From positions 1-36,822 of the IMG/VR virus record IMGVR_UViG_3300044825_000901: DNA of 36,822 nt, one strand, 5' to 3'. Below, one piece after another: positions 22,157 to 31,508 of this stretch. Origin of the DNA: a virus. The first letter of the stretch is position 1, and every line of letters starts with the position of its first letter. Made by a program: the position numbers and the translations under genes. The notes beneath the pieces are model-generated. The model was not told the DNA's origin. It was given only the letters and a program-made list of their open reading frames with translations, and searched no databases.

Positions 22157-23950
22157 CTACGGGGTTCCCTTGAGGTAGCGCAGCAATCGCACGACCTCGC
22201 TTCGATCGAGCACGCTGCCTTCCTTGGCAGCCTGATTTTCCAACATGCGGATAAAGGCCTGCTCGTTCTGCAGCGCCTCGGCCAGCGCGCGATCCTTGCG
22301 CGCGTCGACCGCGCCGCGCACGCTGCCCAGGATGCTGCGACCGACCACCGCGCCAGGGCCGCCGACCGCGTCCAGAGCCACGTCGCCCAAGGCGCGCGCG
22401 GTGCCGGCCGCGAACTGGTCGCTGGTCGTGTTGCTGCCGCCGCCAGCGGTAGCCGAGCGCTTAACGCCTTGCACGATGTTCTGGCGGCGCAGGGCGTCCA
22501 GGATGGACTCCAAGCGCTGACGTGAGGGGTCGGACAGCAGCGTGGACTTGTCGGGCGCGCGTGCGGCGTCCAGGGCCCGGTTAAGGCCCGCCTCGGTAAT
22601 CTTGGGGATGTCGCCGGCTGGGTCGGCCGACACACCGCGCACCCGTCCCGTGGCCATGTCGTAGTAGGACTCGCGCACGCGGCCGGCAGCCTTGGCGGCA
22701 TCTACCGGCCGCTGGTCCTTTGCGTAGCCGGTAATGACGTCTTGCCACTTGTTGCCGGTGACGTTGTTCAGGATGCTGTCGGCCTCCCTCAGCACGTCAA
22801 TGGTGGCCGCGGAGTCGCGCGGGGCGGCTTGGTAGGCGTTGGGGCTCAGAGAGTTGCCGCGGCCGCTGAGGTTGTGCCGGATCGTTCCCAGGTGCTCAGG
22901 GCCGAATGCCGGCCCCAGTCGGTTCATCTCGCTTTCGATCGACTGCAGCATCGACAGCACGGCCGGATTGGACGCCTCTGGCGACTGCTTGGCCAGCTCA
23001 ATGTTGGCGCGGAACTGCGCCAGGTCGTTGCCGAACTGAGCACGGTCTGCGGCCTGGAATGCTGTCGCTTTGTTGGCCTTGATGTTGGCCTCACGCGCCG
23101 CACGTCGCGCCGCCAATTCACCCACCTCTGCGGTCGCTGCGTCGAACTCGCCGGCCACCGCACGCGCCTGGTTCTGGTCGAAGTCGTACCAGTTGGCGCC
23201 GCTGCGAGCGCGCGAGCCGGCCTCTAGGCGCGCCAGCTCGGGGTTGCTCAAGCGCGCGGACACCGACAGCGGGATGCTGCCGCCAGGCGCCTGCGGGGCC
23301 TGCTGACGCATAGCCTGCAGCGTCTGCTGCAGGACCGCCCTACGCTGCGGGCTGGTGGCGCCCTGCGGCACGATGGCCTCGGTCACTTCCTGCGCCGCGC
23401 GCGACTGACCGCGGAAGGGCATCGTGGCCGCGTTGAGCGCGGACATCGACAAGGGAAGCGCGCCGCCAATCGCGCCGCCGAGAATCATGTTGTTGGTGCG
23501 GGTTTCACCCTCGCCGCGCGGGACGATCGCACCGTACCCGGCGCCCGTCGCAGCACCCGCTGCAGCCGTTGCGAGACGGCCGGCACCAGCGGCCACCGGG
23601 ATGCCCGGGATCGCCAGCGTCGGCAGAATGCCTCCTGCCGCCTGCAGCAAGCCGCCGCCGGTGATAGTGCCGGCCAGCCGCTTGTCCATTTCCCGCTTGC
23701 GCGCCACCTCCTGCTCCATGGCGCGCTTCTCGTCCTCGCTGCCGAACATGTCGGTGTAGAGGCCGCGCACGCCGGTGCCCAGGTCGGCCATGCCGGCGCC
23801 GATGTTGGCCAGGATCTTGTCGCCGGTGGACATGCCAGCAGTCGGGTAAAACACCGGATCGGGCGCGACCGCCACAGGACCGTTCTGTGCGCGAAGTCGA
23901 GCCCTGGCAATCGCCAAGGCCTTCTGCTGCTCTAGCGTCATTTGTTCCAT
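22157..23950 (-). CDS. Probable internal virion / DNA ejection protein (597 aa)
   Basis: Large helical protein just upstream of the fibre. After a charged N-terminus it has a long Gly/Ala-rich, moderately hydrophobic region (about 90-140: GGGLLQAAGGILPTLAIPGIP and GRLATAAAGAATGAGYG) that could insert into or cross the host membrane. The rest is coiled, rich in Ala, Gln, Arg and Glu. Podovirus ejection proteins have this composition and gene position. ATG 23948-23950 has AGGAG eight bases upstream; ATG 23941 would give an exact ATGA overlap with the previous stop. A lytic transglycosylase motif is not visible. Confidence 0.65.
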   Translation of the reverse strand: MEQMTLEQQKALAIARARLRAQNGPVAVAPDPVFYPTAGMSTGDKILANIGAGMADLGTGVRGLYTDMFGSEDEKRAMEQEVARKREMDKRLAGTITGGGLLQAAGGILPTLAIPGIPVAAGAGRLATAAAGAATGAGYGAIVPRGEGETRTNNMILGGAIGGALPLSMSALNAATMPFRGQSRAAQEVTEAIVPQGATSPQRRAVLQQTLQAMRQQAPQAPGGSIPLSVSARLSNPELARLEAGSRARSGANWYDFDQNQARAVAGEFDAATAEVGELAARRAAREANIKANKATAFQAADRAQFGNDLAQFRANIELAKQSPEASNPAVLSMLQSIESEMNRLGPAFGPEHLGTIRHNLSGRGNSLSPNAYQAAPRDSAATIDVLREADSILNNVTGNKWQDVITGYAKDQRPVDAAKAAGRVRESYYDMATGRVRGVSADPAGDIPKITEAGLNRALDAARAPDKSTLLSDPSRQRLESILDALRRQNIVQGVKRSATAGGGSNTTSDQFAAGTARALGDVALDAVGGPGAVVGRSILGSVRGAVDARKDRALAEALQNEQAFIRMLENQAAKEGSVLDRSEVVRLLRYLKGTP

Positions 23951-25056
23951 AGCGCTCGCTCCTGCGGCGTCATGGCCGCCCAAACTGCAGGATCAACACC
24001 AGGCGGCGCTGAACCCGCTGATGCGCCGGCGCCAACACGCGGCATCATCGGCAGCACATCCTCAACGCGCAGTCCGTTGCGCTCGGCCATGCTGCGGTAG
24101 GCAGCCGCCAAGTCGTTGCGGCGCTGGTCGGCGCCCGCATAGAGCTGCCGCGCGATCTGCTGCATGCTCGACAGCTGTTCAGGCGTCAGCCGCGCGCCGG
24201 TCATAATCTGATCGGGCTTTTGCAGCAGGCCCTGGAACACGCCGCGGGCGTTGGCGATCAGCGCGTATTCGCTCTCGCGCACCACCGACTCCGGGTCCAG
24301 CATCTTGCCGAACGCGAACACCAGGGATACCTGCTTCGTCGGATCCTTCGCGATGGTGGGATCGCTCAGCAGCGTCATCACCGTCTCAGCGTGGCGCACG
24401 CCCTCGCCAATCTTGTCGGACTTCTTGCCGAACTCGTTGCGCAGCGTGGTCGCCTGGGTGAAGTTGCGGTTCTCGTTGGTGTTGCCGGCGATCACGCCCT
24501 GCAGGGCCAGGCCCTGGCGCCGGAAGTCGTTGTTCAGCTCCTGCTGGCGCAGCCGATCCTGACGATCGCGCTCCTCGCGCGCCTGCCGCTCGATTGCCGT
24601 CTCCATGGTCGTGGCCTGGCGCTCAAGTGATGCGCGTCGCGCATCACGCGACGCAAACGGGTCCTTGATGTACTGGCCATCGGGCGTGAGCATGCCGGCG
24701 CCGAGCTTCATGGGCTCTTGCGCGGCCGCCGCGCGCTTGAGGAACTGCGCCTGCACCGGCTGGAAGCTCTCGCCGGCGTATTGGGCCGCCAAGGCGTTGA
24801 GCATGGCCTGCTCGCCCGACTGGCCCTGCTGACGCGCGAAAGCCTGCAGCGCGGACGTGTCGACGTCCTTCGACTCCAGATCATCGAGCTCTTGGTACAC
24901 CTTGCCCAGCCGCTGGCGCATGCTCATGGGCAGCGCCTGGCCAGGCTGCACGCTGTTGGACAGCGTACCGCCAGGCGACACCAGCGAGCTCATGGCCATC
25001 GGCAGCATGGCCCGCTTGCGGCGCTCGACGTCGTCGGAAAAGGTCAGCGGATCCAT
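23938..25056 (-). CDS. Probable internal virion protein (372 aa)
   Basis: Helical and Gln/Arg/Ala-rich. The middle has a long charged coiled coil (ERQAREERDRQDRLRQQELN). The segment VFAFGKMLDPESVVRESEYAL recurs in internal or ejection proteins of several podovirus groups. The C-terminal end is Gly/Ala/Pro-rich and closes with VWAAMTPQERALWNK. It sits between a 117-aa protein and the 597-aa ejection candidate; the three are likely packaged together. No enzyme motif seen. Confidence 0.65.
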   Translation of the reverse strand: MDPLTFSDDVERRKRAMLPMAMSSLVSPGGTLSNSVQPGQALPMSMRQRLGKVYQELDDLESKDVDTSALQAFARQQGQSGEQAMLNALAAQYAGESFQPVQAQFLKRAAAAQEPMKLGAGMLTPDGQYIKDPFASRDARRASLERQATTMETAIERQAREERDRQDRLRQQELNNDFRRQGLALQGVIAGNTNENRNFTQATTLRNEFGKKSDKIGEGVRHAETVMTLLSDPTIAKDPTKQVSLVFAFGKMLDPESVVRESEYALIANARGVFQGLLQKPDQIMTGARLTPEQLSSMQQIARQLYAGADQRRNDLAAAYRSMAERNGLRVEDVLPMMPRVGAGASAGSAPPGVDPAVWAAMTPQERALWNK

Positions 25057-25058
25057 GA

Positions 25059-25412
25059 TCAGTACCCCGCCAGAGGATCGCGGTCACCGTAGTCCATGAC
25101 GCCGCTGCCGGTCAGGCCTTGGCGCCGGCGGCGCATGTCATCCAGCGCGCGGCGCTGGCGCTCGTTCATGCCGACCATGGCTGAGTCCACGCCCTTCTGC
25201 TGCTGCCCGGCCATGTAGGCCGTGCCCATCTGCGCGATCGCGTTGGCGATGCCGGGCGCGACGTAGTGCTTGCCCACCATTTGCCCCTGCATGGGCTCCA
25301 TAGCGCGGCCGCGCAACGCGTCAACCATGGCCTGCTTGCGGCGCAACTCGTCCTGCTCGGGGCGCATGGCGCCCATCTCCAGCAGGTAGTCGAACATCAG
25401 GTTGTCGTTCAT
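25059..25412 (-). CDS. Small Met/Gln-rich virion-associated protein (117 aa)
   Basis: ATG 25410-25412 has GGAGG six bases upstream and overlaps the preceding stop as TGATG. MNDNLMFDYLLEMGAMRPEQDELRRKQAM and a basic helix (NERQRRALDDMRRRRQG) suggest a helical protein; a central stretch GIANAIAQMGTAYMAGQQQ is similar to internal-protein segments of other short-tailed phages. Role unknown but likely linked to the neighbouring ejection proteins. Confidence 0.65.
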   Translation of the reverse strand: MNDNLMFDYLLEMGAMRPEQDELRRKQAMVDALRGRAMEPMQGQMVGKHYVAPGIANAIAQMGTAYMAGQQQKGVDSAMVGMNERQRRALDDMRRRRQGLTGSGVMDYGDRDPLAGY

Positions 25413-27382
25413 CACAGGCCTCCGTAGTTCACCATCAGGTAGCCGTTGGCGTGTCGCTTGACCAGGTCAGGGCGCACGCGCTCCACCTCTTGTGCAATCA
25501 CACCGCGTTGCGGCATTCCCATCATTGTGTAGTCGTAAATGCCGACACCGGTGCTATGTGTCCCCACCCGCTTGATGTTCGACTTCAAGCGCCGGTCGGA
25601 GAACATGAACGCGGCCGAGCCGATCTGTGCGCCAGCATTCAGCAGGTTGCCGAAGCCGGCCTGCTGCGCGTTGTAGGCGCCCAGCGCGGCGTCGTAGCCC
25701 ATCTGCGTGGCGCCCAGGATGTTGGGCGTCTCCGAGCGCTGCGCGGCCGCAAACGACGGCATGTTGGGCATGTTCACTTGCTGGCCCGACAACAGCGCGT
25801 TCATCTCGTTCAGAGACATACCGCGACGCTGCATCTGCTCGGCGATCGCCTGCTGGCGCAGACGGTTGCGGGCGTCGGCGAACTGCTGGTTGAGGCCGAA
25901 CTGCTGCGCCGCCGCTTGGTTCTGCGCCTGCATGCGGGCGATGTCGAGCGCGGACGCCTGGCCCAGGGCCTGGTTCTGGAACTGACGCGCCTGCAGGTCC
26001 TGATTGAACTGCTGGCCGGCGGCCTGGTTGGCCAGGTTGGCCTGCCCCATCAACTGCCCGTAGAGCTGCTGCTGCGCCTGGTTGCCGAAGTTGAACGCGC
26101 CCAGGGTCTGGTTGAAGGCCTGGTTGGCCGCCTGGTTCTGGAACTGGCCGGCGCCCATCGCCTGGTTGAACTGCTGCGCGGCCGCACGGTTGGCGGCCTC
26201 GGTGGCGCCCATCGCTTGCGCGTAGGCCTGCTGCACGGCGCTGTTGCCGAACTGGCCCGCAGCCAGGTTCTGGTTGAACTGCTGACCCAGCGCTTGGTTG
26301 CCGGCCTGCTGGGCCTGCATCGCTTGGTTGAACGCCTGCCCCGTGGCCTGGTTGGCGAACTGGTTGGCGGCCAGGCCTTGATTGAACGCCTGGTTCGCGG
26401 CCTGGTTGAAGAAGTTGCCGCCGGAGACGTCCTCGTTGAACGCCTGCTGGCGCGCACCCATCTGCATGCCAAACAACCGCTGCGCCTCCGCGCCCGACTG
26501 GTCCAGCGCGTTGAAGCGCTCAGCGGCTTGGCGCTGGTTCAGCTCGTCCAGCGCGCGCTTGTATCCCTCGCTGCCGATGTCGAAGCCCTGGTTTGCCAGG
26601 CGCGTCTCGAGCTGCTGGCGCTGGTAGTCGTGCACCGGCTGCATGCGCGTCATCAGCTGCGTGGCCACCTGGTCGCGGAAGCCGCCGTCGATCTGCGGCA
26701 GCGCCGGGTTGTCGCCGGTGGCCAGCGAGCGCTGCAGCGACTCGGTGCCCGTGCCGCGGCGCAGGTCGCCGGTCATGCCGCTGAAGTTGGCGTTGACGTT
26801 GGTATTCGGCACCGCCCGTTGCACGTCGCCGGTCATGCTGCTGAATCGGTTGTCGACGGGCGTCTGCGCCACGCTGTTGACCATGTTGCCGGTCATCGGT
26901 GACATCGACATCTGCGGGCCGCCGAAGTTGAAGCCGCTCACCACGTTGTTTGCGCGAGAGTCGACACCCGTCTGCAGGCCGCGTGTGTAGTCGGCCAGGC
27001 CCGTCTGCAGGTTGCCCACCGAGTTGGCCTCGGCCATCTGCGGCAGGTTGGCGTAGTCGAACGGGCGCTGGTACTCGCTGGCCACGCGGTCCATGAAGCC
27101 GCTGGCGAGCTGCGAGCGGTCGTTTTGCAGGCCGATCTGCGCGTTCAGCGCAGACTGCAGCGCCGGCGCCAGGGTGTTGTTCTGCGTCCACGACGTGACG
27201 TACTGACCCGTCGCCGGGTCCACCTGCGCGCTGGTCTGCCAGGACTGCGAACCGAACGGCGTGTTGATCGTCGGCCGGTTGGCAAAGTTCTGGATGTTGG
27301 TCAGCTCCTTAGAAGCTGCCGCTTGCGTGTTGGCCGCACCGATGTAATCAGGTGGTGGAGGTGCCGATCCCTTGCCGCCCAT
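25412..27382 (-). CDS. Probable ejection protein with eleven 18-residue repeats and a short C-terminal S74-type domain
   Basis: 656 aa. ATG 27380-27382 has AGGAG eight bases upstream and opens MGGKGSAPPPPDYIGAANTQ, a typical start for podovirus internal proteins. Residues 315-512 are eleven consecutive units of exactly 18 residues starting with Phe or Tyr in most copies, consensus FNQ-x-L/M-x-A-x-Q-F-x-NQA-x4. Eighteen residues equal five alpha-helical turns, so hydrophobics keep the same face. The last 62 residues start SDRRLKSNIKRVG and continue to RGVIAQEVERVRPDLV, the first half of a peptidase S74 domain without its C-terminal coiled coil. It overlaps the end of the GNAT-like gene by 35 bases. 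Confidence 0.7.
   Translation of the reverse strand: MGGKGSAPPPPDYIGAANTQAAASKELTNIQNFANRPTINTPFGSQSWQTSAQVDPATGQYVTSWTQNNTLAPALQSALNAQIGLQNDRSQLASGFMDRVASEYQRPFDYANLPQMAEANSVGNLQTGLADYTRGLQTGVDSRANNVVSGFNFGGPQMSMSPMTGNMVNSVAQTPVDNRFSSMTGDVQRAVPNTNVNANFSGMTGDLRRGTGTESLQRSLATGDNPALPQIDGGFRDQVATQLMTRMQPVHDYQRQQLETRLANQGFDIGSEGYKRALDELNQRQAAERFNALDQSGAEAQRLFGMQMGARQQAFNEDVSGGNFFNQAANQAFNQGLAANQFANQATGQAFNQAMQAQQAGNQALGQQFNQNLAAGQFGNSAVQQAYAQAMGATEAANRAAAQQFNQAMGAGQFQNQAANQAFNQTLGAFNFGNQAQQQLYGQLMGQANLANQAAGQQFNQDLQARQFQNQALGQASALDIARMQAQNQAAAQQFGLNQQFADARNRLRQQAIAEQMQRRGMSLNEMNALLSGQQVNMPNMPSFAAAQRSETPNILGATQMGYDAALGAYNAQQAGFGNLLNAGAQIGSAAFMFSDRRLKSNIKRVGTHSTGVGIYDYTMMGMPQRGVIAQEVERVRPDLVKRHANGYLMVNYGGL
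25847..26440 (-). repeat. 54-bp tandem coding repeats (eleven copies)
   Basis: Encodes residues 315-512 of the neighbouring ejection candidate. The repeat length is constant at 18 codons, with starts at residues 315, 333, 351, 369, 387, 405, 423, 441, 459, 477 and 495; the last two copies are the most diverged. Such DNA can gain or lose units by recombination. The long antisense open frame here is a by-product of the biased codons. Confidence 0.8.
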
Positions 27383-27788
27383 GAGCGTTCTCCTTGATCC
27401 AGCGGCACTCGTCATGCCGCATTTCAAACATTACGCAGTCAACCGTCTCAGCGATCCTGCGGAATCCCAACTTGTCATTCATCCGCAGCGCGTCGTCGAG
27501 GTTCTTGGGCGTCAAGCCGTAGATGGCCTCCATGCCGCATTTTACGAATGGATACTCAAACGCCGCGCGCCACAGGTGCCTGTTCAGGCCGTGCGGGCCG
27601 TCAAACGCGACGTGAATCCAGCACGCCGACATCGTCCAAGCGTTAAAGGCAACCGCGCTGGCGATCGTCCCGTCGTCACGCATGGCCGCGATCGTGCGCA
27701 GGTCGCTGCTCCACGGCAGCCGCGTGCGCCGGTTCATCCACTCCCAGATGACCGGGTATTCGCCGGGCTGATCGGTGACTAGCTTCAC
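27348..27788 (-). CDS. GNAT-like acetyltransferase-fold phage protein (146 aa)
   Basis: The layout follows the GNAT fold: IWEWMNRRTRLPWSSDLRTIAAM, strand IASAVAFNAW, CWIHVAFDGP, helix LNRHLWRAAFEYPFVKCGM, strand AIYGLTP, then DDALRMNDKLGFRRI. The ending VMFEMRHDECRWI is typical of a protein often found near internal virion genes in T7-like and related podoviruses. Acetyl-CoA binding is plausible but the usual Q/RxxGxG/A loop is weak (FDGPHGLNR). It starts at a GTG overlapping the previous stop. Confidence 0.7.
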   Translation of the reverse strand: MKLVTDQPGEYPVIWEWMNRRTRLPWSSDLRTIAAMRDDGTIASAVAFNAWTMSACWIHVAFDGPHGLNRHLWRAAFEYPFVKCGMEAIYGLTPKNLDDALRMNDKLGFRRIAETVDCVMFEMRHDECRWIKENAHGRQGIGTSTT

Positions 27789-28681
27789 CGCTCCATATCC
27801 TCAGGCGTATCGAACTTCTCGCGCAGCTTGCGCTCGGCCTCCCTGGCGAACGCGAACATGTCCCACTCATCAATCAGCTTGTTGATGTCGACGATCTCCT
27901 CGCGAACGGGGTCTTGGTCCGACATCAACACGCCGAAGGTGTACTGGTCGCTCTGCAGGTCGGATCCGTTGACGTCGTTCACGCTGCCGAGCGTGTCGTC
28001 GTCCATGTCCGACAGCAGCACGCCAAACGTATACCGATCGCTCTGAAGGTCAGCGCCATTGACATCGTTCACGCTGCCAAGCGTGTCGAGCGGGTCGACA
28101 AAGTTGTCGCTGTCCAAATCAGCGCCATTAACGTCGTCCACGCTGCCCAGGGTGTCGTCATCCATGTCGGACAGCAGCACTCCAAAAGTCCCCGTGGTGT
28201 CGTTGGCGCCCCAATGGCTGGCGTCAGTTTTGAGATTGGTTGTGGTGATGCCTGGGCTTGTGACATCAATAGTGGTGCCGCCTGGGGTGGTGCCGCCTGG
28301 GGTGGTGCTGGTATCAGAGACAGCGCCCGTGCCTGCGGTGCTGGCAGTGTTTGCTAGCCCGCTCTCAGTCGTCACCGCCGGCTTGATGATTCGAGACTTT
28401 GGCCCCGTGCTGACTTCGTTGGACACTGTGCCACCGCCACCACCACCAGAAACAACAGGCGCGACGGGCGCAGTGGGCGCAATGATCACGGGACGCGGCG
28501 CGGGGGCTGCCATCTGCGGCGGCACGTAGCCGGCAAACGACTTGCGCGAAAACGACGGCAGCGCCATGCCGTTCTGCGCGTTGTCGTAGAACCTGATGCC
28601 AGGATTCGGCAGACCAGGCGCTGACGCGCCACGCAGAGCCTCGATGAGTGCGCTCGTCGGCGCTGCCGGTGCTGTTGCCAT
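27785..28681 (-). CDS. Acidic repeat protein, Pro/Thr/Gly-rich N-terminus (298 aa)
   Basis: ATG 28679-28681 overlaps the preceding stop (TGATG). Residues 1-160 are low-complexity: Pro/Ala, a run of six Gly, then Thr/Gly/Pro-rich (TTPGGTTPGGTT). Residues 165-257 contain three and a third acidic repeats: TFGVLLSDMDDDTLGSV then DVNGADLQSD (165-194, 195-217 shortened, 218-247, 248-257 partial). DVNGADLDSD resembles Ca-binding loops of dockerin/EF-hand type but lacks the full pattern. The C-terminus is a charged helix (FAREAERKLREKF). No family is recognised; tail location suggests a virion component. Confidence 0.6.
   Translation of the reverse strand: MATAPAAPTSALIEALRGASAPGLPNPGIRFYDNAQNGMALPSFSRKSFAGYVPPQMAAPAPRPVIIAPTAPVAPVVSGGGGGGTVSNEVSTGPKSRIIKPAVTTESGLANTASTAGTGAVSDTSTTPGGTTPGGTTIDVTSPGITTTNLKTDASHWGANDTTGTFGVLLSDMDDDTLGSVDDVNGADLDSDNFVDPLDTLGSVNDVNGADLQSDRYTFGVLLSDMDDDTLGSVNDVNGSDLQSDQYTFGVLMSDQDPVREEIVDINKLIDEWDMFAFAREAERKLREKFDTPEDMER
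27911..28189 (-). repeat. In-frame tandem repeats of the acidic protein
   Basis: Near-identical 90-base units (30 codons) with one shortened to 69 bases, coding for TFGVLLSDMDDD and DVNGADLQSD. Third-position differences between copies show the duplication is not brand new and that protein sequence has been kept. Confidence 0.75.
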
Positions 28682-30297
28682 CACATCACTCCACCAATTT
28701 CAGTCATCACATGCGCGGACGTGAACACCGTCTGCGGCAGGCCGCGCACCTTCATGCACAGAGAGCCGTAGTAGCCTAGGCCCGTGGTGCCGGCCCAGCC
28801 CTGGTAGGTGTTCTGCCCGGCCCAGGTCGCCACGTTCCACACAGCCGTGTCCCACAGTCCTGTGTCGTCTCCGGTGTAGAACGGAGAACCGCCGATCGGC
28901 GTGAGCTGGAACTGCGTGTTCATCTGCACCTTGATCGAAGGCGCCGACAGCGCGATGAAGATGGGCCGCACCATGCCGAACTTCTTGTTCTGCGCAGGCG
29001 TGCCGAAGTGCGTGAACGCGCTCTGCATCTCGCCCTCGACGTAGTTGCCGCCGGCGCCAACCGAATCGACCGCGTCGCGATCGCCGTACAGGCCCTTGCA
29101 GGTCAGACCGTCCTCGGTGCCGAAGTACAGCTCGCCGTCGATGACGGTCGCGCAGCGCATCGGCATGCCCTCGAAGTCGCACCAGGCGCCGGTGGTGACG
29201 TTCATCGCAAATTGGCGATACGTGCCACCGTCATTGGGCAGCTTGATCACCAGCACCTCGGACGACGGCACCACGAACACGTTGAAGAACTTCTCGTTGC
29301 GCAGCTTGCGCACGAGCGGTGCAAACACCGACTGAATCTTCGACGCGGGGCCGCCGGCTTGGATGTCCTGCGAATACTGGCCAGTGATCAGGCGCGACAT
29401 CGGCACCAGGCCGAGCTCGCTGACGATCATCACGTCACCGCCGAACGGCGTGAAGTACGTTCCGTGCCGCGGAACAGGGCCAACGAACCACACGCCCTTG
29501 AGGTTGAACGTCGACGCATTGGTCGGGTCGGTGCCCTCCCAGACGCCGATGTCGCCCTCGGTGCCCACGGCCACCAGGAAGTCGTCGACACTGAAGCCGG
29601 CGTCGATCGTCCAGTTGAACAGCGCCGAGATGTAGCCGCCATTGCGCAGAAGCGAGCCCATAGGGAATGCGTCTGCGTGCCCTTGAATTTCGTTGACAGC
29701 CCGCATGTAGTACACGCGCGAGTCGCCCTCGACCGTGAACCAGATGCGCCGCTTCCACACGGCAACCGTGCGCACGTTGGTCGACAAGCCAACAGTCAAT
29801 GCAGTGCGATCGACCCAGCCGCCAGTGGCGTCGTAGGTCCAGTACCCGGCGCCAGGCGAGACGGCCAGCAGGAACGTGCCGGCGGCCGTGGAAAACTGCG
29901 TCGTCCACCACTCGTCGTTGGTGCTGCCGGTGCCGGATGGGGTCATGTCGACCGGAGCGCCGCCGGCGGTGACGTCGTAAATTTTCCCGTTGGTGGCCAT
30001 GAACACGCGGTTGTCATCCGGGTCCGGGGCCGTGTAGCTGAAGATCGACTCCACCGACTGCGCAACGTCGGCGACCTCCACGGCGTCGGCATAGGCCTGC
30101 CAGCCCTTGCGCAACTCCACCCCCTGCTGGCGCGGGATGAAGTTGGTCAGCACTAGCGCGTCGCTGGGCTGCATTGCGCTGATCGGGTCGCGGTAGTTCA
30201 GCCCGCCAGTAGGCGCGGGGATGACGGCAACCTGCGCTGTTTGCGCGGCGGCCGCCCTTCGCGGCGTCTTGAAGGGTTTGACCGGGATCAGCGGCAT
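28681..30297 (-). CDS. Tail nozzle / beta-propeller-like tail protein (P22 gp10-like)
   Basis: 538 aa. The start segment APTGGLNYRDPISAMQPSDALVLTNFIPRQQGVELRKGW is typical of podovirus tail proteins that follow the connector. The rest is beta-rich with repeated strand motifs such as VAVWKRRIWFTVEG, VGTEGDIGVWEG, VVPSSEVLVIKLPNDGG and VIDGELYFGTEDG, consistent with a propeller forming the tail tube end. It follows the connector gene after an inserted HNH gene and probably forms the tail nozzle to which fibres attach. Its start lies three bases after the HNH stop. Confidence 0.8.
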   Translation of the reverse strand: MPLIPVKPFKTPRRAAAAQTAQVAVIPAPTGGLNYRDPISAMQPSDALVLTNFIPRQQGVELRKGWQAYADAVEVADVAQSVESIFSYTAPDPDDNRVFMATNGKIYDVTAGGAPVDMTPSGTGSTNDEWWTTQFSTAAGTFLLAVSPGAGYWTYDATGGWVDRTALTVGLSTNVRTVAVWKRRIWFTVEGDSRVYYMRAVNEIQGHADAFPMGSLLRNGGYISALFNWTIDAGFSVDDFLVAVGTEGDIGVWEGTDPTNASTFNLKGVWFVGPVPRHGTYFTPFGGDVMIVSELGLVPMSRLITGQYSQDIQAGGPASKIQSVFAPLVRKLRNEKFFNVFVVPSSEVLVIKLPNDGGTYRQFAMNVTTGAWCDFEGMPMRCATVIDGELYFGTEDGLTCKGLYGDRDAVDSVGAGGNYVEGEMQSAFTHFGTPAQNKKFGMVRPIFIALSAPSIKVQMNTQFQLTPIGGSPFYTGDDTGLWDTAVWNVATWAGQNTYQGWAGTTGLGYYGSLCMKVRGLPQTVFTSAHVMTEIGGVM

Positions 30298-30300
30298 GGT

Positions 30301-30762
30301 TTACGCCCAAGCACGGCCTGATGCGATCAGGCCGATATGCGACGCCGAAACGCCGAACTCTCGACCCAAAGAAGATTGGGTCGCTCCTTCGCGCAGCAGC
30401 TTTTTGATGCAAGCCACTTCAATTTCCGTCAGCTTGGCTGAGGGGTTCTTGCTTCCCTTGTTGTTGTACCGACCCTTGCGCGCGCGATCGGCCATGTTGT
30501 CGCCATGAGTACCGAGAAAAAGGTGATCGATGTTGACGCACGCGGGCGTGTCGCACTTGTGGCAGACGCACATACCAGCAGGAATCTGACCGTTGTGCTT
30601 GACCCACACTTCCCTGTGGACGCGAACGTATCGACCGTCGCGCCCAATCCGGCCATAGCCACAATCGTCTTTTGTTCCGGTAAAGATGTGGCAACCGTTG
30701 TCGCCGACAACGGTGTGCGCAGAGACTCGATCCCAGAAGGGGGCGCGTTTAGAAACTTTCAT
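30301..30762 (-). CDS. Free-standing HNH homing endonuclease with HTH tail (153 aa)
   Basis: The catalytic core is intact: CHIFTGTKDDCGYGRI, then VHREVW (H49, R50), CHKCDTPACVNIDHL (H68, C70, C75, N77, H80) and GTHGDNMADR. A C-terminal HTH follows (KLTEIEVACIKKLLREG, SSLGREFGVSASHIGLIASGRAW). It lies between the connector and the tail-nozzle gene, overlapping the former by ATGA, so it interrupts the structural operon without breaking a gene. Free-standing HNH enzymes of this type spread by cutting related phage genomes lacking them; the target is probably a neighbouring gene. Confidence 0.88.
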   Translation of the reverse strand: MKVSKRAPFWDRVSAHTVVGDNGCHIFTGTKDDCGYGRIGRDGRYVRVHREVWVKHNGQIPAGMCVCHKCDTPACVNIDHLFLGTHGDNMADRARKGRYNNKGSKNPSAKLTEIEVACIKKLLREGATQSSLGREFGVSASHIGLIASGRAWA

Positions 30763-31508
30763 CCGCCGAGTCCGGTGTCTGGTGTGTTGATCAGAGGCTG
30801 GATGTACGGGAAGCGGAAGTCGCGCGCCATGGTCAGCACCGGCGCGCCCTTTTCGGAATTCTTGCGGTTCTCGAATGCGATGTTGAAGTCGCGCATCGCG
30901 GCGCTGCTGTCCAGGCCCTTCATCTCGAGCCACTTCACGCGTGTGTACAAGGTGATCACCGTGGCGTCGAGCAGCGACACGTCGCCGTTCTGCGTCATCC
31001 GGTTCTTGTACAGCGTAGCGTCGTCCTGATCACGCACCCAGCCGGCCGAGACGTAAAACACGTTCATCGTCTGCGGCGAGTTGGGCGGCGCCAGCACGTA
31101 GATCTTGTTGTCGCGGACCTGCCAGTAGAACGACAGCGTCGGCAGCGTCGTGCGGATCAGCAGCTGCTGCCACATCTGCGCCGACACCGGGCCCAGCGAG
31201 GGGAACTGCGTCGTCGCGTTCCAGTTGGTCTGGTCAATCCAGCGGTACAGGTCCTCCGGCAGCGGGAAGCCCTTTTCCTTCTGGCCGTTGCTGTCCGACT
31301 GGATGGGGATCTGGTAGTTCTTCACCAGTTCCTGCCACTCGAACATCGACAGCAGCTCATTGCCGGCCATGTTGGCCGCCTGAACCATCTGCTGGACCGC
31401 GGGGTCCTCCGAGCCGGCAGGATCTGCAGGGACGGGGTAGGCCACCATCGCGGCCACGTTTTGCACGATGGCCGAAAGGGTCGATTCGTTGACGATCTGG
31501 AAGGCCAT
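30759..31508 (-). CDS. Head-tail connector / adaptor protein (249 aa)
   Basis: GGAGG six bases before ATG 31506-31508. The protein has FPLPEDLYRWIDQTNWNA and FPSLGPVSAQMWQQLL, a motif set of podovirus adaptor proteins that lie between capsid and tail-tube genes, then FYWQVRDNKIYVLAPPNSPQ and VFYVSAGWV. C-terminal helices (LDATVITLYTRVKWLEMKGLD, MRDFNIAFENRKN) suit ring formation under the portal. The family call is by these motifs and gene order. Confidence 0.75.
   Translation of the reverse strand: MAFQIVNESTLSAIVQNVAAMVAYPVPADPAGSEDPAVQQMVQAANMAGNELLSMFEWQELVKNYQIPIQSDSNGQKEKGFPLPEDLYRWIDQTNWNATTQFPSLGPVSAQMWQQLLIRTTLPTLSFYWQVRDNKIYVLAPPNSPQTMNVFYVSAGWVRDQDDATLYKNRMTQNGDVSLLDATVITLYTRVKWLEMKGLDSSAAMRDFNIAFENRKNSEKGAPVLTMARDFRFPYIQPLINTPDTGLGG

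Follow-up and report, generated by a model that had tools for sequence, protein, structure and literature searches.

The window, meaning the whole stretch of DNA analysed here, is an IMG/VR virus record of 36,822 bases. On its minus strand a reading frame opens with an ATG at position 27382, preceded by AAGGAG, and encodes a protein of 656 aa; an alternative TTG start lies 15 codons upstream of that ATG. The protein is a member of a known virion-protein family, with profile matches to phrog_6121, "virion structural protein" (E 1e-61, in two stretches), and, second, to phrog_4287, "DNA ejection protein" (4e-10). Its central array of 18-residue repeats is real, and the segments around it are listed with the neighbouring genes in Table 1.

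Table 1. Features of the array gene and of its neighbours in the window
Feature	Position	Strand	Basis
Whole gene, 656 aa, phrog_6121 virion structural protein (stop 25412-25414)	25412..27382	-	ORF and profile match
N-terminal domain, residues 1-114, predicted helix / beta hairpin / helix	27041..27382	-	AlphaFold2 pLDDT ~53-74 (residues 1-104); conserved anchor P114
Variable N-terminal segment (proposed strap), residues 115-229, N-span 115	26696..27040	-	Length tracks array; AlphaFold2 coil, pLDDT ~30
Three 20-residue repeats, residues 160-179, 180-199, 200-219 (M/F-S-x-M-T-G)	26726..26905	-	Lag-20 identity 0.30; 0/500 shuffles
Hairpin (first helix and turn), residues 230-271, anchor LANQGF..GSEG	26570..26695	-	P229-L262 distance 33 in 99/99; AlphaFold2
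Start of long helix preceding array, residues 272-314	26441..26569	-	AlphaFold2 model
Eleven 18-residue units, residues 315-512; in family N12 invariant, Q17, A14, F/Y1 and Q3 conserved	25847..26440	-	Lag identity and relatives
C-terminal end of long helix and conserved motif LNEMNALLSGQQV, residues 513-545	25748..25846	-	Anchors in relatives
G/A-rich segment, residues 546-594; approximate end of protein in 11 complete S74-less relatives	25601..25747	-	Relatives
S74 intramolecular chaperone domain, residues 595-656 (SDRRLK)	25415..25600	-	PF13884, 29.4 bits (cut-off 22)
Upstream neighbour, acyl-CoA N-acyltransferase family (P22 gp14 / IVPA position)	27348..27788	-	phrog_4470; phiGT1 order identical
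Downstream neighbour, 118 aa, no family match	25059..25415	-	Size similar next to arrays of 2 to 17 units
Downstream neighbour, 372 aa, phrog_13634 (unknown), internal-virion-protein position	23938..25056	-	Profile match and position
Downstream neighbour, 608 aa, no family match, internal-virion-protein position	22157..23983	-	Position

Gene order in the window runs from a head protein and a tail protein through a phrog_5107 protein, the acyltransferase and the array gene to the 118-, 372- and 608-aa proteins and a tail fibre of 1184 aa. The same order occurs in phage phiGT1. The annotation there gives tubular tail B for the phrog_5107-like gene, likeness to P22 gp14 and T7 IVPA for the acyltransferase, and "putative injection proteins" for the next two genes; the published description of phiGT1 names IVPA as the P22 gene-14 homologue (PMC10386132). 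In P22 the order is gp10, gp26, gp14, gp7, gp20, gp16, and the gp7-type arrangement of a gp10-like gene, a gp14-like gene, the array protein, two internal virion proteins and a tail fibre was found in the window. Since P22 and phiGT1 share this order, the array gene falls in the gene-7 or internal-virion-protein-B (IVPB) slot, and we infer that it is the IVPB of a phiGT1-type order. Gene order and family labels are likewise what suggest the name of putative ejection protein. A Pseudoalteromonas phage S74 protein in the same slot is also annotated "putative ejection protein", although only its own C-terminal part matched, and P22 gp7 itself gave no profile match (hhalign probability 0.3, single-sequence target).

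Three further genes of this region deserve mention. The phrog_5107 gene (28681-30297, minus strand) bears the PHROG name "amidase", which may mislead given the P22 gp10-like tubular tail B annotation of its phiGT1 counterpart. Between it and the acyltransferase, where P22 has its tail needle, lies a gene for a 299-aa protein (27785-28684, minus strand) with Asp-rich repeats of ~30 aa (TFGVLLSDMDDDTLGSVNDVNGADLQSD), a 90-bp tandem repeat at 27917-28088 and no family match. An HNH endonuclease gene (30304-30933, minus strand) sits within the head-tail module, as it also does in phiGT1 and NYA-2014a.

The array had been described in the first-pass annotation as eleven exact 18-residue repeats. 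The spacing is exact, with eleven units and no indels, but the sequence is not: identity was 0.417 at lag 18, 0.451 at lag 36 and 0.458 at lag 54, compared with a maximum over all lags of 0.283 in 5,000 shuffles. Similarly, F or Y stands first in 10 of the 11 units, as had been noted, whereas the full FNQ start occurs in only six, and position 10, thought to be aromatic or hydrophobic, is F or L in seven units but Ala in four. In longer arrays this position alternates between F and A mid-array, making 36 residues the larger period. Across 274 distinct interior units from the family, N12 was invariant and Q17 (96%), A14 (94%), Q3 (88%) and F/Y at position 1 (98%) were highly conserved; Pro was absent and V, I and T together made up 3.4%.

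Support for the earlier suggestion of a long alpha-helix repeating every five turns comes from length steps of whole units in relatives (99/100), from the lack of Pro and the low V+I+T content, and from a helix in both AlphaFold2 models, albeit at low pLDDT. That this helix would be singly amphipathic found no support, moments at 100 degrees being unremarkable (p 0.30 and 0.33). Conservation within units is instead strongest on two opposing faces (p 0.007, uncorrected for nine harmonics), leaving one variable sector. A heptad coiled coil was rejected, with identities of 0.136 at lag 7 and 0.261 at lag 14 against 0.417 at lag 18. A beta-solenoid with 18 residues per coil is very improbable: although an exact 18-residue period, the invariant Asn, a 9-residue half-repeat and a hydrophobic moment peaking at 80 degrees (4.5-residue spacing) would suit such a fold, the scarcity of V, I and T, the absence of Pro, the helical flanks and array in both AlphaFold2 models, and the repeats of 22 and 25 residues in other lineages, which are whole alpha turns, all point to a helix.

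These AlphaFold2 monomers, of the window protein (20 sequences) and of a 3-copy relative (40 sequences), reached mean pLDDT of 50 and 54 and pTM of 0.22 and 0.20. Both placed the array inside one long helix of low pLDDT and left the segment ahead of it, the proposed strap, as unpacked coil, which counts against packing of the two. In VIA-align comparisons with the PDB, the 3-copy model gave middling helical matches (best Z 6.6), and its C-terminus a weak match to the MyRF ICA domain (Z 3.0). Searched alone, the array had no PHROG match up to E 1 and a single weak Pfam match (PatG_D, 0.58); the strap segment alone had no PHROG match up to E 1 and no Pfam match. Matches of the array to solved sequences (Crov588, 1.5e-5, no single stretch passing; MERS HR1, 0.073) were ascribed to composition.

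Relatives were collected as 249 ORFs carrying three profile anchors, two of which could not be mapped; with duplicate proteins counted once, 100 distinct sequences were kept. The distance between the anchors flanking the array equalled 10 mod 18 in 99 of them, the sole exception (L272) being left out of the counts on 99 rows. Copy number, which the first-pass annotation had proposed to compare among related phages, ranges from 2 to 17 in whole-unit steps, with 2, 3, 4, 5, 6, 7, 9, 11, 13, 15 and 17 units in 2, 39, 12, 9, 5, 2, 14, 5, 7, 1 and 3 sequences, respectively; above seven, only odd numbers occur. Non-integer repeat lengths, regarded at first pass as telling against the helix, do not characterise this near family (whole units in 99 of 100) and did turn up in remote lineages, in the form of other spans and of units of 22 and 25 residues. 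Phage-collection searches returned array-less or partial relatives and no isolate bearing the array, and a genome-contig search returned no relative. Two IMG/VR records, IMGVR_UViG_3300047554_000338 (L038 and L067; 71 kb) and IMGVR_UViG_3300043444_000155 (L057 and L066; 43 kb), each hold two family genes of unequal copy number and may be two phages joined in assembly.

A separate N-terminal segment, outside the region first annotated and itself a 20-residue repeat, covaries with the array. It gains 10 residues for every 18-residue unit (r 0.9994, 99 distinct sequences), the N-span being mostly 33 at 3 units, 53 at 5, 73 at 7, 93-95 at 9, 113-115 at 11, 133-135 at 13, 153 at 15 and 173 at 17. 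Residuals from N-span = 10 x units + 3 lay within -1 to +3 in 98 of 99 sequences (0 in 61, 1 in 13, 2 in 16, 3 in 3, -1 in 5 and 10 in 1). The outlier, L244, has 2 units with an N-span typical of 3 and counts against strict coupling. Control segments hardly varied: the P229-to-L262 distance was always 33, and the stretch up to S74 was 70-79 in the 85 rows measured. The 20-residue period was detected in 13 of 16 arrays of at least 11 units (lag-20 identity matched by fewer than 5% of 500 shuffles) and fell below significance by the same test in L015, L110 and L101. Three further scans added 20 new distinct sequences, of which 19 had whole units and all 20 had residuals within -3.1 to +2.

On a quick tree of the conserved parts (99 rows), copy number changed at least 36 times, and both parts changed to match in 25 of 26 branch-disjoint pairs differing in copy number, L244 being again the exception. 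Closely related genes show the paired changes at DNA level. L102 and L112, 97.7% identical, differ by just two gaps, of 120 and 216 nt; the window gene and L001 differ by gaps of 11 + 49 (60 nt) and 108 nt; and L042 and L036 by 33 and 54 nt. Matching pairs of gaps, accompanied by others, separate L119 from L102 (24 + 96 and 216 nt, plus a C-terminal 117), L226 from L039 (33 and 54 nt, plus 75) and L010 from L018 (120 and 216 nt, plus short ones). The 10:18 proportion was held within one residue per unit in all six gene pairs compared. With the caveat that gap placement inside repeats is uncertain, the places of the paired gaps fitted an antiparallel layout of the two segments (r 0.79, 25 pairs; r 0.69, p 0.014, in the 12 pairs whose shorter array has at least 5 units) and not a parallel one (r 0.27 and -0.16, respectively). 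The sequences come from metagenome contigs, and repeats assemble badly; it is nevertheless scarcely credible that the coupling is an assembly artefact or a mutational by-product (repeat collapse, a shared recombination mechanism) instead of the outcome of selection. The two arrays are unrelated in sequence and lie apart within the gene, the 9-unit (L112/L130) and 13-unit (L102/L103) forms of a near-identical gene were each recovered from two differently numbered IMG/VR metagenomes, and four cultured isolates conform to the same line.

Those isolates belong to a wider set in which the coupling outlasts the 18-residue register. Among 26 remote rows, five lacked the U anchor; in the 21 measurable rows spans were mostly not 10 mod 18, yet 20 lay within -2.1 to +3.8 of the line. 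Lineages with non-integer spans thus keep to the length coupling, something a lone rod would leave unexplained. L386, whose N anchor scores only 15 bits, was 32 residues off and counts against the coupling. The array-less proteins of the cultured phages RHph_N2, NYA-2014a, Mwe-JY13 and phiGT1, in which anchor scores were weak (10 to 36 bits), have a span of 50 and N-lengths of 53, 52, 52 and 52, compared with 52.2 predicted. A joint fit gave N = 0.5583 (±0.0033) x h - 32.5 (n = 138; residual s.d. 1.29) after leaving out L272, L386, L323 and the four proteins of lineage A and moving L332 to the remote set; the slope of the remote set alone was 0.553 ± 0.017. Other periods appear in this set: L323 and L336, which differ from each other by 88 and 48 residues, have 22 in the helix and 12 (36) in the strap, and L326 has 25 and 14. 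Lineage A (L320, L331, L343 and L345) combines a helix period of 18 with a strap period of 11, the latter significant in L320 only. Its helix/strap lengths (316/216, 226/161, 172/128 and 129/103) are near-linear among themselves and lie 6.5 to 15 above the main line with their own ratio of 11 per 18, which counts against one line for all. In these sequences the helix units would correspond to whole alpha turns (5, 6 or 7), with the strap appearing to advance by 2 residues per turn, or 2.2 in lineage A.

Coupling by itself cannot separate direct packing from two measures of one outside length, and strap and helix might not touch, each instead following the length of some third structure, for example the tail tube or an ejected tunnel. 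We consider this unlikely. Beside members with 2 to 17 units, the first downstream ORF has 114-160 aa in nearly every row (217 in one) and the second mostly 314-433 aa; inspection by eye shows no dependence of downstream gene lengths on copy number; and the coupling persists in near-identical genes and down to array-less proteins.

The PF13884 match raises another alternative, because homotrimeric tail fibres are the best-known carriers of S74 domains. The same strap-and-helix rod could stand outside the capsid as an S74-trimerised fibre or needle-like appendage (collar fibre or tail needle), as might also be read from the length of the longest members (~55 nm, 370 helix residues) and from a remote S74 relative in phiM5 annotated as putative tailspike. 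This location is possible but not the one we favour: the gene lies between the IVPA-like acyltransferase and internal-virion genes, the window has a separate 1184-aa tail-fibre gene, and the P22 needle gp26 gave no profile match (hhalign probability 0.2, single-sequence target). Furthermore, the S74 motif is absent in 14 of 99 sequences, 11 of which are complete ORFs that end approximately where S74 would begin; hence the domain is not needed in the mature protein. Ten S74-less members (L015, L116, L109, L140, L120, L177, L180, L255, L250 and L169) have a short GLFGF/GLFRF-like C-terminus at the chaperone start. Length coupling is independent of S74 presence. The endings of the S74-less ORFs fit a chaperone that is removed from the mature protein; the window protein has the SDRRLK motif, and self-cleavage would be predicted before the conserved Ser.

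We return to a virion component of a P22/phiGT1-type podophage, probably built as an antiparallel extended strap lying along a straight alpha-helical rod of matched length. The central part would be a single long straight alpha-helix in units of whole turns (18 residues for five turns), and the chain ahead of it would run back in register along its full length, advancing by about two residues per helical turn (~2.7 Å per residue versus 1.5 Å). With a helix rise of 1.5 Å per residue the strap rise comes to 2.7 Å, so the strap would be extended and equal in length to the helix. With the strap antiparallel, one rod end would hold both the N-terminal domain and the C-terminus of the helix, and the opposite end the helical hairpin. 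Because rod length could change only by matching units in both, two unrelated arrays would come to have the same copy number. Since the AlphaFold2 monomers were of low confidence with a loose strap, it is from the coupling that we infer strap packing. The S74 domain may help assembly, probably of an oligomer, and then be cut off. If fully helical, the rod would measure ~39 nm in the window protein and ~7.5 to 55 nm across the family, and might set the reach of a part of the ejection apparatus from particle to cell envelope. Capsids for a genome of ~37 kb are of a size in which a 55-nm straight rod would hardly fit, which argues against packaging in straight-rod form. It also seems fairly probable that this is a new build of adjustable-length rod, with two tandem arrays in one chain, helix units of 18, 22 or 25 residues and strap units of 10 or 11, 12 or 14, zipped antiparallel.

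Two unrelated arrays thus keep matched copy numbers from 2 to 17 units through many independent changes, with a slope good to less than 1%, and their line correctly predicts the lengths of cultured-phage proteins. Drawn from sequence data, this is an unusually sharp constraint on a fold that structure prediction missed; it makes an unseen virion rod testable, in that length, direction and register are predicted. If the rod is part of the ejection apparatus, the question becomes which feature of the host envelope sets its range of 7.5 to 55 nm. Pairs of strap and helix with lengths dictated by copy number may also be of use in protein design.

The coupled pair of arrays appears to be undescribed: the literature searched yielded no 18-residue repeat in a bacteriophage, no molecular ruler linked with ejection and no relevant report of an S74 domain on ejection or internal virion proteins. 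The nearest known proteins are the S74 structural proteins phiGT1_17 and that of RHph_N2 (relatives of phrog_6121 and phrog_4287), the latter homologous end to end (hhalign 99.9). They share gene order and length line with the window protein but are only 326-342 aa long and lack the array, with a helix span of 50. P22 gp7 and T7 gp14-like outer-membrane ejection proteins share its gene-order slot; those listed in the available part of PMC8954989 are 196-240 aa, compared with 656 for the window protein, and that part describes no array comparable to the one found here. Like tail fibres with Peptidase_S74 intramolecular chaperones, the window protein has the domain at its C-terminus; unlike theirs, it sits on an ejection-module protein, and 11 complete ORFs lack it. 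Residue count is also tied to physical length in phage tail tape-measure proteins and nebulin, as it is in the window protein. In those rulers, however, the protein measures another structure, whereas in the window protein two parts of one chain match each other.
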